A DNA stretch of 40,537 bases from the NCBI GenBank assembly GCA_003278545.1, contig QCEF01000011.1, positions 1 through 40,537 on the forward strand. The letters run 5' to 3'. The notes below the pieces were generated by a model. That model was not told the origin of the DNA and made no database searches. It saw only the letters and a list, made by a program, of their open reading frames with translations. This stretch comes from Prochlorococcus sp. AG-355-N16 (GTDB lineage: Bacteria; Cyanobacteriota; Cyanobacteriia; PCC-6307; Cyanobiaceae). Below, in pieces: positions 11,571 to 14,065 of this stretch. A program made the translations under genes and the position numbers. Within the stretch, counting starts at the first letter, position 1. Every line of letters starts with the position of its first letter.

Positions 11571-11616
11571 AATACAGTTGTACTATTAATATAAATGTAC
11601 TACTTTTGGATGTCAA
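11571..11616 (-). promoter_or_regulatory. Promoter with LexA-box-like palindrome (copy 1)
   Basis: On the minus strand, TTGACA (11611-11616) and TATATT (11588-11593) are separated by 17 bases. Right after the -10 is AGTACAACTGTATT (11571-11584), which fits the cyanobacterial LexA box RGTACNNNDGTWCB except for one base. The box would cover the transcription start. The same layout occurs at 14019-14065. Confidence 0.55.
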
Positions 11617-11757: not shown

Positions 11758-11994
11758 ATGTATCGAAATCCCTTCTATTTAGGATGGAATAAAGGTTGGT
11801 CTTTTTTATTTTTTTTAGAGGGCGGCATTGCAAAAATTGAAGCAAAAGGATTTGGCATATCTATTACAACAAAAGTTGAAAAGGGAGAATCACCCTTAGA
11901 ATCTGCGGATAGATTAGTCTCGAAAGAGCAAAGGATTAGAAAGTCAAGATATTATTCTTGGGTTAGATCTATTAATGAAAAAACAATAAATTAA
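11758..11994 (+). CDS. Hypothetical protein, 78 aa
   Basis: It begins MYRNPFYLGWNKGWSFLFFL, has a glycine-containing strand (GGIAKIEAKGFGISITT) and a charged C-terminal helix. It may be membrane-associated through the N-terminal aromatic stretch. No family is recognised. It is divergent from the DUF1651 operon. Confidence 0.5.
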   Translation: MYRNPFYLGWNKGWSFLFFLEGGIAKIEAKGFGISITTKVEKGESPLESADRLVSKEQRIRKSRYYSWVRSINEKTIN

Positions 11995-12063: not shown

Positions 12064-12321
12064 GTGTCTAAGAAATTTTATGAATGGTGGAAAAACCATA
12101 GAAAAGTTGTAACCTATGGAGCTTTTATAATCTTGTTTGGTTTTTATTTATCTCCTGCGCTCAAAGAAGCAAAATACAAAAACCAATGTATTAAGTACTC
12201 TACTAAAGGAGCTTTAACTAAATTTAATAAGGACAATATAGGAGAAACTTTACTAGCGGAAACAGGTTTGAACATCGATGAACTAGCAAAGATTGAAGGT
12301 TATAAGAATTGCATTAATTAA
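12064..12321 (+). CDS. Hypothetical single-TM protein, 85 aa
   Basis: It begins at GTG (MSKKFYEWWKNHRKVVTYGA) with a basic head, one TM (about 17-32) and a tail with two cysteines (NQC and KNC near the end). The tail is probably periplasmic. It is the first gene of a four-gene run that includes the ligase-like protein. The family is not recognised. Confidence 0.55.
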   Translation: MSKKFYEWWKNHRKVVTYGAFIILFGFYLSPALKEAKYKNQCIKYSTKGALTKFNKDNIGETLLAETGLNIDELAKIEGYKNCIN

Positions 12322-12351
12322 AAGTTCGCAAAAAATACGTTGAGTTTTGTA

Positions 12352-12558
12352 ATGATTAAAGGCATGTTTAAACTTATTTTATTAATATTATTATTTGGAT
12401 TTATATCAATAAGTCCAAAAACAAGATATTTGGTTGGCACAACTCTAAAAGAAATTTCTTCATTTCTTTTATGGACTGTTGAATATGAAGATAGAGAAAA
12501 ATGGATCATAGATAAACCAAGTTGGATACCTAGTCAAAAACTTAAGCCATCGTATTAA
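12352..12558 (+). CDS. Hypothetical N-anchored protein, 68 aa
   Basis: I chose the ATG at 12352 (MIKGMFKLILLILLFGFISI) rather than an in-frame TTG at 12340. A single N-terminal hydrophobic segment precedes a soluble tail with EYEDREKWIIDKPSWIP. The stop abuts the ATG of the ligase-like gene (TAAATG), implying translational coupling. Confidence 0.5.
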   Translation: MIKGMFKLILLILLFGFISISPKTRYLVGTTLKEISSFLLWTVEYEDREKWIIDKPSWIPSQKLKPSY

Positions 12559-13308
12559 ATGAAGACTTATTTAGAAGAACGAATTGAATGGTATGACGAT
12601 AATTATAGAAATGGTAATGCTTTAATCTCTGATAAGCAGTTCGACCAACTTGAAAAAAATTTATTAAGAACAAACCCTAATTGTGATTACTTTAAAAAGA
12701 AAAATAAACTAGTTTTACCTTCATTAGAAAAGGATTCAATAGATGAATTTTTGAAAGGATTATTAGCAGATACCAGATTATTAATTGAGCCGAAAATAGA
12801 TGGTTGTGCTGTTGCTTTGCAATATAGGGATGGAACCTTGGAGAAAGCAATCTCAAGAAAAGGGACAGACGTTACTAGTAAACTTATTAGAGTCCAAGAC
12901 ATTCCCAATAATCTCCCTTTACGAGGAGTTCTTCAAGTTAGAGGTGAATTATATGCACCCAACCAAAGTCCAAATATCTCCCAGAGAATCGCTTCTGGAT
13001 TTCTAAGAGCTAAAGAAGGATTTTCTGAAAGTCTTAGCTTCTGCGCATTTCAAATACTTAATTCAACACTTAACCAATATGAGTCCAAAAAGAGTCTTTC
13101 AAAGCTTGGCTTCACGATCCCTCAGGATATTTCATGCAACTTTACGAGCCAAGTTGAAGTATTTAGAAAACAATGGCTAGAAGGGGATCTTTTTAATAAA
13201 TATCCAACAGATGGAATAGTAGTAAAAATAAATTCTAGAAAATTACAATTGATTAGAGAAAAATCAAATTTAGTTTATCCTTATTGGCAAGTGGCAATAA
13301 AACGTTAA
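12559..13308 (+). CDS. Minimal NAD+-dependent DNA ligase-like protein (adenylation domain only)
   Basis: The 249 residues cover domain Ia and the nucleotidyltransferase domain of LigA and then stop. Domain Ia is seen at 8-40 (EWYDDNYRNGNALISDKQFD). Motif I, EPKIDG, is at 77-82 with Lys79 as the AMP-accepting lysine. RGELY at 128-132, PTDGIVVKIN at 216-225 and the motif V match WQVAIK at 243-248 are intact. The OB fold, zinc finger, HhH and BRCT domains of a normal ligase of about 670 aa are missing. All adenylation residues being kept argues against simple decay. It may adenylate itself but is unlikely to seal nicks alone. It sits in an operon of small membrane proteins. Confidence 0.85.
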   Translation: MKTYLEERIEWYDDNYRNGNALISDKQFDQLEKNLLRTNPNCDYFKKKNKLVLPSLEKDSIDEFLKGLLADTRLLIEPKIDGCAVALQYRDGTLEKAISRKGTDVTSKLIRVQDIPNNLPLRGVLQVRGELYAPNQSPNISQRIASGFLRAKEGFSESLSFCAFQILNSTLNQYESKKSLSKLGFTIPQDISCNFTSQVEVFRKQWLEGDLFNKYPTDGIVVKINSRKLQLIREKSNLVYPYWQVAIKR

Positions 13309-13421
13309 TGGAATTAATACACCAGATTTTTCCTACTTGGCATATTTACTTGGATATGTTTTTGGTTGGCTTTACAACTTACGGTTTTCTGAGAATTAAG
13401 AAAAAAATAAAAACTAAATAA
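13308..13421 (+). CDS. Small membrane protein, 37 aa
   Basis: The ATG overlaps the stop of the ligase-like gene (TAATG). The frame MELIHQIFPTWHIYLDMFLV continues with GFTTYGFLRIKKKIKTK: one hydrophobic segment and a strongly basic cytoplasmic tail. The overlap is the main support. It may act with the ligase-like protein, but that is a guess from coupling. Confidence 0.45.
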   Translation: MELIHQIFPTWHIYLDMFLVGFTTYGFLRIKKKIKTK

Positions 13422-14018: not shown

Positions 14019-14065
14019 AATACATGTGTACTACTAATATAAATACATTAGAAATGGATCGTCAA
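14019..14065 (-). promoter_or_regulatory. Promoter with LexA-box-like palindrome (copy 2)
   Basis: On the minus strand, TTGACG (14060-14065) and TATATT (14036-14041) are 18 bases apart. AGTACACATGTATT (14019-14032) follows, differing from RGTACNNNDGTWCB at a single position. It corresponds element by element to the promoter at 11571-11616. Confidence 0.55.

Follow-up and report, generated by a model that had tools for sequence, protein, structure and literature searches.

Domain organization and predicted fold

What can a protein do that carries the NAD+-binding and adenylation parts of a bacterial DNA ligase and then stops? The question is raised by one gene in the window (the whole analysed stretch of 40,537 nucleotides from Prochlorococcus sp. 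AG-355-N16, contig G000:C11 in our locus labels), whose product is hereafter called the solo protein.

12559..13308, + strand: solo NAD+ adenylation protein, 249 aa (open reading frame call, PF01653, structure model and orthologues); domain Ia at about residues 1-45, nucleotidyltransferase domain at about residues 50-249
12793..12804, + strand: KIDG motif; K79 is the expected AMP-accepting lysine; K79, D81 and G82 are identical in 100 of 100 loci

The first-pass annotation had described an NAD+ ligase-like protein with only domain Ia and the adenylation domain, and this was borne out by family search, profile alignment and superposition of a model. The 249-aa protein matched PF01653 (DNA_ligase_aden) over residues 72-230 (E 1.8e-18, 67.5 bits against a cut-off of 27), a profile of 34 solo relatives aligned residues 10-314 of E. 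coli LigA (2owo) from domain Ia onward (E 3.5e-32), and the same profile matched the PR1 phage ligase subunit (E 1.1e-38). For the AlphaFold model (pLDDT 86.4, pTM 0.76), the best structural matches were LigA adenylation domains, with a top Z of 22.2; on E. coli 2owo (Z 21.0), residues 49-249 of the model were placed on residues 74-315. The score with TIGR00575, the curated LigA model, was 70.6 bits and thus below the cut-off of 444.45.

The C-terminus of the solo protein corresponds to residue 315 of E. coli LigA, one residue past the motif V lysine K248, which we take to be the equivalent of LigA K314. The domain Ia residues Y16, R17, D25, F28 and D29, which we assume from LigA to be functional positions, were present. 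E77, K79, D81, G82, E130 and K223 correspond to E113, K115, D117, G118, E173 and K290 of E. coli LigA, and F164 occupies the place of Y225, the adenine-stacking residue. The seven nucleotidyltransferase residues of E. coli LigA tabulated in PMC5052709 are all present in the solo protein, with F replacing Y at the adenine-stacking position. The earlier statement that the adenylation motifs are intact, including Lys79 and the motif V lysine, and that the protein ends right after motif V therefore holds (K248, end at residue 249). Compared with the LigA and two T5-type rows of the alignment, all 15 solo rows lack a loop of four residues behind R100.

No OB fold follows motif V, the reading frame ending after residue 249, and PF03120, the LigA-type OB domain, had zero matches at E 10 in the strain's own genome (95.5% complete, 23 contigs). 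The suggestion that a partner supplies the OB fold was thus not borne out in the searched genome.

Conservation of the window copy

A total of 100 orthologous loci with 91-100% identity were compared, in one set of 20 (including the window copy) and one of 80; ten loci of the first set have a 1-kb core identical to that of a locus in the second, and 90 coding sequences are distinct. All 100 loci had an ATG start and a stop after codon 249. Relative to the window copy, mean dN was 0.0216, mean dS 0.0851 and median dN/dS 0.27, with 137 of the 249 columns variable. Y16, R17, F28, E77, K79, D81, G82, E130, R150, F164, D218, K223 and K248 were identical in all 100 loci, and D25, D29, R100 and R143 in 98, 99, 99 and 95 of them. 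Because all loci end at the same codon, median dN/dS is 0.27 and the catalytic residues are invariant, the window gene is not a recent truncation. No full-length version was found at any of the 100 orthologous loci, and purifying selection on the catalytic residues is supported. Alignment and structure model together show a predicted complete domain Ia and nucleotidyltransferase unit without an OB fold, of conserved length and with conserved catalytic residues.

Solo family and paralogues

Matches were detected in 51 of 60 related genomes and, within the own genus, in 36 of 37; in that survey the intact own-genus copies had open frames of 249-283 aa, and frames as long as a full ligase (mostly 680-760 aa) were seen only outside the genus. 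The own genome contains three intact solo loci, on contigs C11 (the window), C16 and C2, together with a fragment of the C-terminal part on C6. A branch with support 100/96 in a 39-row tree separates the solo proteins from LigA and the T5-type ligases. With the root on this branch, 9 of 11 viral rows diverged ahead of the Prochlorococcus copies, at unstarred support of 94/91 and 94/88, and the other two, L227 and L228, fell inside the Prochlorococcus copies.

That the gene is a truncated, functionless ligase on its way to being lost is extremely improbable: broken solo copies do exist (L181, L185, G018 and the C6 fragment of the own genome), yet the window copy is intact at 249 aa in 100 of 100 loci with a median dN/dS of 0.27, and the solo proteins form a separate, divergent group in the tree.

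The copy on C2 is a second fixed paralogue.

G000:C2:103023-103754: solo paralogue L151, between a photolyase-like FAD-binding gene and a short-chain dehydrogenase gene; L156, L166 and L167 are placed likewise

Catalytic positions are altered in L151 (E77Q, R100K, D218N and K248E), and L155 carries K248N. Because L151 is changed at several catalytic residues, the family probably has non-catalytic members too, and with L155 changed at K248 as well, adenylation is probably not required of all copies. Two genes named "DNA ligase", of 603 and 687 bp, are listed as LLI-specific in PMC6102989, and we infer that these are the short solo pair seen in g61 genomes.

Replicative ligases of the genus

The LigA OB domain was found in 133 of 151 family genomes; it was lacking in all 10 sampled genomes of the own genus and in 8 more, none of the latter above 96% completeness. 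Among 87 genus genomes of 90% completeness or more, a search with complete LigA was positive in three: G241, G224 and G223 (pieces, two frames). The 442-aa ATP ligase of the own genome (G000:C1:131103-132428; L286, L288) matched Pmar-Lig (6RAU) over its length with E 5e-283, and relatives of this protein at E 1e-60 or better were found in 80 of the 87 genomes (partial in G234). The seven genomes without one were the three LigA genomes and G034, G247, G248 and G271, in which neither LigA nor Pmar-Lig was found. Judged from this distribution, it looks as if the replicative LigA has been replaced by Pmar-Lig in the genus. This calls into question the printed assumption of a replicative NAD+ ligase beside the ATP ligases in Prochlorococcus, as most genus genomes appear to have Pmar-Lig instead.

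Viral relatives and their neighbours

Scanning of viral contigs with a 15-row alignment yielded 45 loci: 27 with solo genes, 14 with T5-like frames (one of them truncated by the end of its contig) and 4 with longer ligases. The viral solo genes were intact in 26 of 27 cases, at 231-289 aa counted from the first start codon; L252 is broken (151 aa). A phrog_1924-like gene was present within 2 kb of all 27 (L227-L253), a count made with a profile built from five of the neighbours later counted (all five match phrog_1924) and on contigs of which some are near-duplicates, for example L245/L246 and L248/L249. It was located at most 250 bp upstream in 24 loci, just downstream behind a RusA-like gene in L227 and L228, and 1.8 kb downstream in L243. 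The PHROGs name for phrog_1924 is minor tail protein. In the viral contigs with annotated surroundings, replication-type genes lie near the solo gene, for a VRR-NUC nuclease and a VapE-like protein in L231, for a primase zinc ribbon in L250 and for RusA in L227; the 888-aa open reading frame at the primase position of L242 had no Pfam match. In the BFVD, the 193-aa uncharacterised protein G8EY44 of Synechococcus phage S-CAM8 resembled the solo model (TM 0.71 by its own length) and is perhaps an even shorter solo nucleotidyltransferase.

A constant neighbour could be the other half of a split enzyme, in which a separate non-homologous or very divergent OB or DNA-binding subunit completes a nick-sealing NAD+ ligase, as in the phages T5 and PR1. 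Such split ligases exist, the phrog_1924-like gene accompanies 27 of 27 viral solo genes, and R150, whose LigA counterpart we take to contact DNA, is identical in 100 of 100 loci. We nevertheless regard a split ligase as quite unlikely, with PF03120 unmatched in the searched genome and T5 LigA itself possessing an OB fold (972-base gene, InterPro note), before which the solo proteins stop. Moreover, phrog_1924 was absent from all 40 genomes searched, 25 of them of the own genus (the control matched only in E. coli), so it was rejected as a partner in Prochlorococcus, and a model of the phrog_1924-like protein (pLDDT 77.8) had no PDB match better than E 4.

According to PMC11357015, an NAD-ligase virus family is found only in low-light strains, which fits the ligase data for the genus.

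The window operon and its flanks

In the window, the solo gene lies in a run of small same-strand open reading frames; the 110 loci in which these neighbours were counted include ten paralogous loci.

11758..11994, + strand: 78-aa open reading frame, first of the same-strand run; in 99 of 110 loci
12064..12321, + strand: 85-aa open reading frame (up85), upstream operon member, one hydrophobic stretch by eye; in 99 of 110 loci
12352..12558, + strand: 68-aa open reading frame (72 aa from the TTG at 12340; up72), N-terminal part hydrophobic by eye, stop abutting the solo ATG; in 100 of 110 loci
13308..13421, + strand: 37-aa open reading frame (dn37), hydrophobic by eye, start overlapping the solo stop (TAATG); in 100 of 110 loci

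Length and operon, whose conservation in relatives had been proposed as a check, were both conserved: all 100 orthologues end after residue 249, and up85, up72 and dn37 recur at the counts listed above. The 85-aa reading frame is weakly similar to small genes downstream of another solo copy and of a solo fragment. The first-pass annotation had also claimed translational coupling to small membrane proteins on both sides. Here the upstream stop (TAA) does abut the solo start (ATG) and the solo stop does overlap the next start (TAATG), suggesting that the solo gene is translationally coupled to the adjoining reading frames; their membrane character is a judgement of hydrophobicity by eye.

The flanking operons with SOS-box-like sites fared less well. 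LexA-box-like palindromes are present at 11571-11584 and 14019-14032, each with one mismatch to the search pattern, which follows what we take to be the cyanobacterial box. Both sites precede minus-strand DUF1651 genes that flank the solo operon, not the operon itself, and across the window 12 sites with at most two mismatches were found against 8.4 expected, which is not above chance. A defence-system library gave matches at E 0.01-0.02 only.

Recombinase-linked copies and tRNA islands

Outside the window, solo genes were found directly behind recombinase genes of two unrelated classes, a tyrosine integrase in six loci (L150, L154, L281, L282, L160 and L183) and a large serine recombinase in three (L165, L283 and L284). 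The integrase of L183 is a fragment, and the aligned stretch of L160 (G159) counts two internal stops. The L165 serine recombinase matched PF00239 and PF07508, and those of L283 and L284 are 45.8% and 47.4% identical to it. The recombinase stop overlaps the solo start in all nine linked loci, chosen from the matches and not at random, by four bases (ATGA) in eight and by one base (TAATG) in L283. Among the 15 solo loci tabulated for this overlap, chosen in the same way, six (the window, L155, L158, L153, L151 and L166) have no recombinase directly upstream. Outside this table, an integrase fragment was seen downstream of the solo gene in L159, L162 and L163, and about 450 bp upstream in L161.

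Such overlaps with recombinase genes, and the small reading frames abutting the solo gene in the window operon, would also suit a protein AMPylator, in which AMP on K79 is transferred to another protein, for instance the recombinase or one of the small operon products. We consider this very unlikely; to our knowledge, the covalent nucleotidyltransferases of the ligase superfamily act on nucleic acids.

In the solo tree, one starred group (99/91) comprised the tyrosine-linked copies L154 and L281 and the serine-linked copy L283, and L281 and L283 were sisters with 98/79, just below starred support. Given the starred branches, three or more label changes are needed for tyrosine, and two or more for serine. 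As the two labels interleave, the recombinase has, on this tree, been swapped while the solo gene was kept.

Identical tRNA-Pro(UGG) 3' ends of 24-51 bases were found 7-175 bp upstream of the integrase in all seven tyrosine loci, the seventh being L180, in which integrase and solo gene are both broken. Near the three serine recombinases no tRNA was found among the kinds tried (Pro, Thr, Val, Ser and Met), the query set being taken from the collected loci only, in pieces of at most 50 bases.

One such element, on contig C16 of the own genome (L150, L285), is bounded as follows.

C16:1152-1202 and C16:9858-9905: tRNA-Pro fragments, bounds of the element
C16:11848-11924: intact tRNA-Pro

Its solo gene overlaps by four bases the gene of a 411-aa protein that matched the PHROG integrase family phrog_1 (E 3.9e-14) and no Pfam family at E 0.01, and the element encodes integrase, solo protein, an HTH protein, an HK97-type capsid-protease (PF05065, E 7e-39) and an AAA_25 ATPase. 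We take a tycheposon-like island to have a tyrosine integrase next to a 3' piece of a tRNA gene and another such piece at its far end. The C16 paralogue lies in such an island, with the integrase by a tRNA 3' fragment and the second fragment at the other end. In the window, no tRNA and no match to the L150 tyrosine or L165 serine recombinase was found, so the window copy is not placed in one. The open literature that was searched contained no report of a solo protein of domain Ia and adenylation domain coupled to a recombinase. The first-pass annotation had mentioned neither these recombinase-linked paralogues nor the viral relatives, nor the scarcity of LigA in the genus.

Probable exchange at the 3' end of the gene

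The last part of the solo gene was also found on its own.

13222..13308, + strand: 3'-terminal 87-bp module, codon 222 to stop, motifs IV-V; recurs elsewhere in the genus without the rest of the gene

The loci noted for the lone module are L157, L164, L174, L175, L176, L177-L179, L273-L275 and L283. In total, 21 fragment copies were gathered, and 13 of the 21, which were measured, have a common left edge at codon 222, joined to varying upstream sequences. For these 13, mean identity to the nearest full-length copy was 0.36-0.39 up to base -1 (random level 0.35-0.41), rose to 0.87 over bases 0-14 and 0.97 over bases 15-29, was 0.82 from there to the stop, and fell to 0.63 and then 0.48 past it; 3 of the 13 (L174a, L176 and L275) keep 0.60-0.67 identity over the last 15 bases ahead of it. 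This edge is not clearly shared by the eight omitted copies: L276-L280 and L283b match from base 26 only, L152 extends further upstream, and L272b is weak. Fragments with other edges were observed in L180, L181 and L185.

One downstream flank is joined at the module edge to different upstream flanks, as in L155 compared with L157/L164/L177 and with L178/L179, and in some cases the full-length solo gene is one of the alternative upstream partners. We read this as a probable exchange of upstream and downstream modules at the 87-bp edge. An attC-like hairpin in the module was tried as a candidate and was unsupported in four folded copies (z +0.73, -0.13, -1.58 and -0.59). DNA-level constraint on the module was weak, with 0.603 against 0.568 identical codons among identical residues in 11 full-length copies; in four photolyase-adjacent copies the module was less conserved than the remainder of the gene (0.69 against 0.84). 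An exact 36-base module pattern had no match in the viral contigs.

A bolder reading, which we hold to be unlikely, is a new kind of recombination accessory: on marine phage satellites, tyrosine and serine recombinases would have an NAD+-charged adenylyltransferase as their obligatory partner, the 87-bp 3' end of its gene would also be the site at which upstream and downstream modules are exchanged, and the host chromosome would later have captured the gene.

Proposed function

The reading that we prefer, tentatively and at slightly less than an even chance, is that the solo protein is a stand-alone NAD+ adenylylating module, spread with phages and phage-satellite-like elements as a partner of DNA breaking and rejoining machinery, and that the window copy descends from such a module, is immobile in the chromosome and has been retained by selection. 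Judging from LigA chemistry, NAD+ would bind between domain Ia and the nucleotidyltransferase domain; given the complete machinery and LigA biochemistry, K79 would accept AMP and NMN would leave. On mobile elements, AMP might then be passed to DNA ends held by the recombinase complex, or these ends might be sealed, and the chromosomal operon might perform an equivalent DNA-end function for the host. Delivery to ends held by a recombinase is proposed because the solo protein alone cannot clamp a nick; the OB domain of known ligases covers the nick and places it in the active site, as stated in PMC5052709. Entry titles of 1TA8 and 3UQ8 indicate that isolated LigA adenylation domains of bacteria are known with NAD+ or as the adenylate.

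A DNA-end role is favoured because the recurrent company of solo genes is DNA recombination and replication machinery. Against a partnership counts that the window copy itself is not adjacent to a recombinase. The solo protein might instead be an NAD+/NMN sensor or switch, in which reversible adenylylation of K79 reports the NAD+ state, for example its depletion by anti-phage defence, and gates the recombinase or the membrane proteins with no need of an AMP acceptor. Phage proteins consisting of domain Ia alone are interpreted as NAD+ sensors in PMC9503650, a LigA fragment serves as a genetically encoded sensor according to the title of 8JYD, and the degenerate fixed paralogue L151 might bind without catalysing. 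This sensor is unlikely in our view: none of the 100 window orthologues differs at K223, K248 or E130, residues that a pure binder would not obviously need, and no NAD+-metabolism genes were noticed in an unsystematic look at the neighbourhoods. A DNA-end role with a recombinase or host complex is thus ranked ahead of the NAD+ sensor, the split ligase and the protein AMPylator.

If the preferred reading is correct, site-specific recombination and the biology of phage satellites would gain an NAD+-driven step, in a photosynthetic organism that is among the most abundant, and the name "NAD-dependent DNA ligase" on phage and Prochlorococcus proteins that are without half a ligase would be accounted for.

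Comparison with known systems

Tycheposons, reportedly described by Hackl in 2023, are said to be tyrosine recombinase islands at tRNA genes in Prochlorococcus. The pairs of tyrosine integrase and solo gene likewise lie beside tRNA-Pro 3' ends, whereas the window copy is outside such an island. The picocyanobacterial integrase element described in PMC10187409 uses tRNA-Phe or tRNA-Cys, and the word "ligase" does not appear in the main text of that source. Phage solo NLig-Ia proteins are, like the solo protein, a piece of an NAD+ ligase standing alone, but they are described in PMC9503650 as domain Ia without the catalytic module, which the window protein keeps.

With LigA, the solo protein has in common the fold, the domain order of Ia and adenylation domain (PF01653), the KxDG and later adenylation motifs and the NAD+-binding domain Ia, but it is without the OB, zinc, HhH and BRCT domains and the four-residue loop after R100. 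Subunit A of the heterodimeric T5/PR1 NAD+ ligases is likewise a short NAD+ ligase chain starting with domain Ia; that of T5, however, has about 323 aa, contains an OB fold and has ligB adjacent according to the annotation of L211, whereas the solo protein has no OB fold, its operon reading frames encode only 37-85 aa, and it falls on the other side of the tree branch. Truncated T4 RNA ligase 2, which is engineered, belongs to the ATP family of RNA ligases and, unlike the solo protein, has no NAD+ domain, is a case of a ligase nucleotidyltransferase domain that is able to work without its C-terminal domain.
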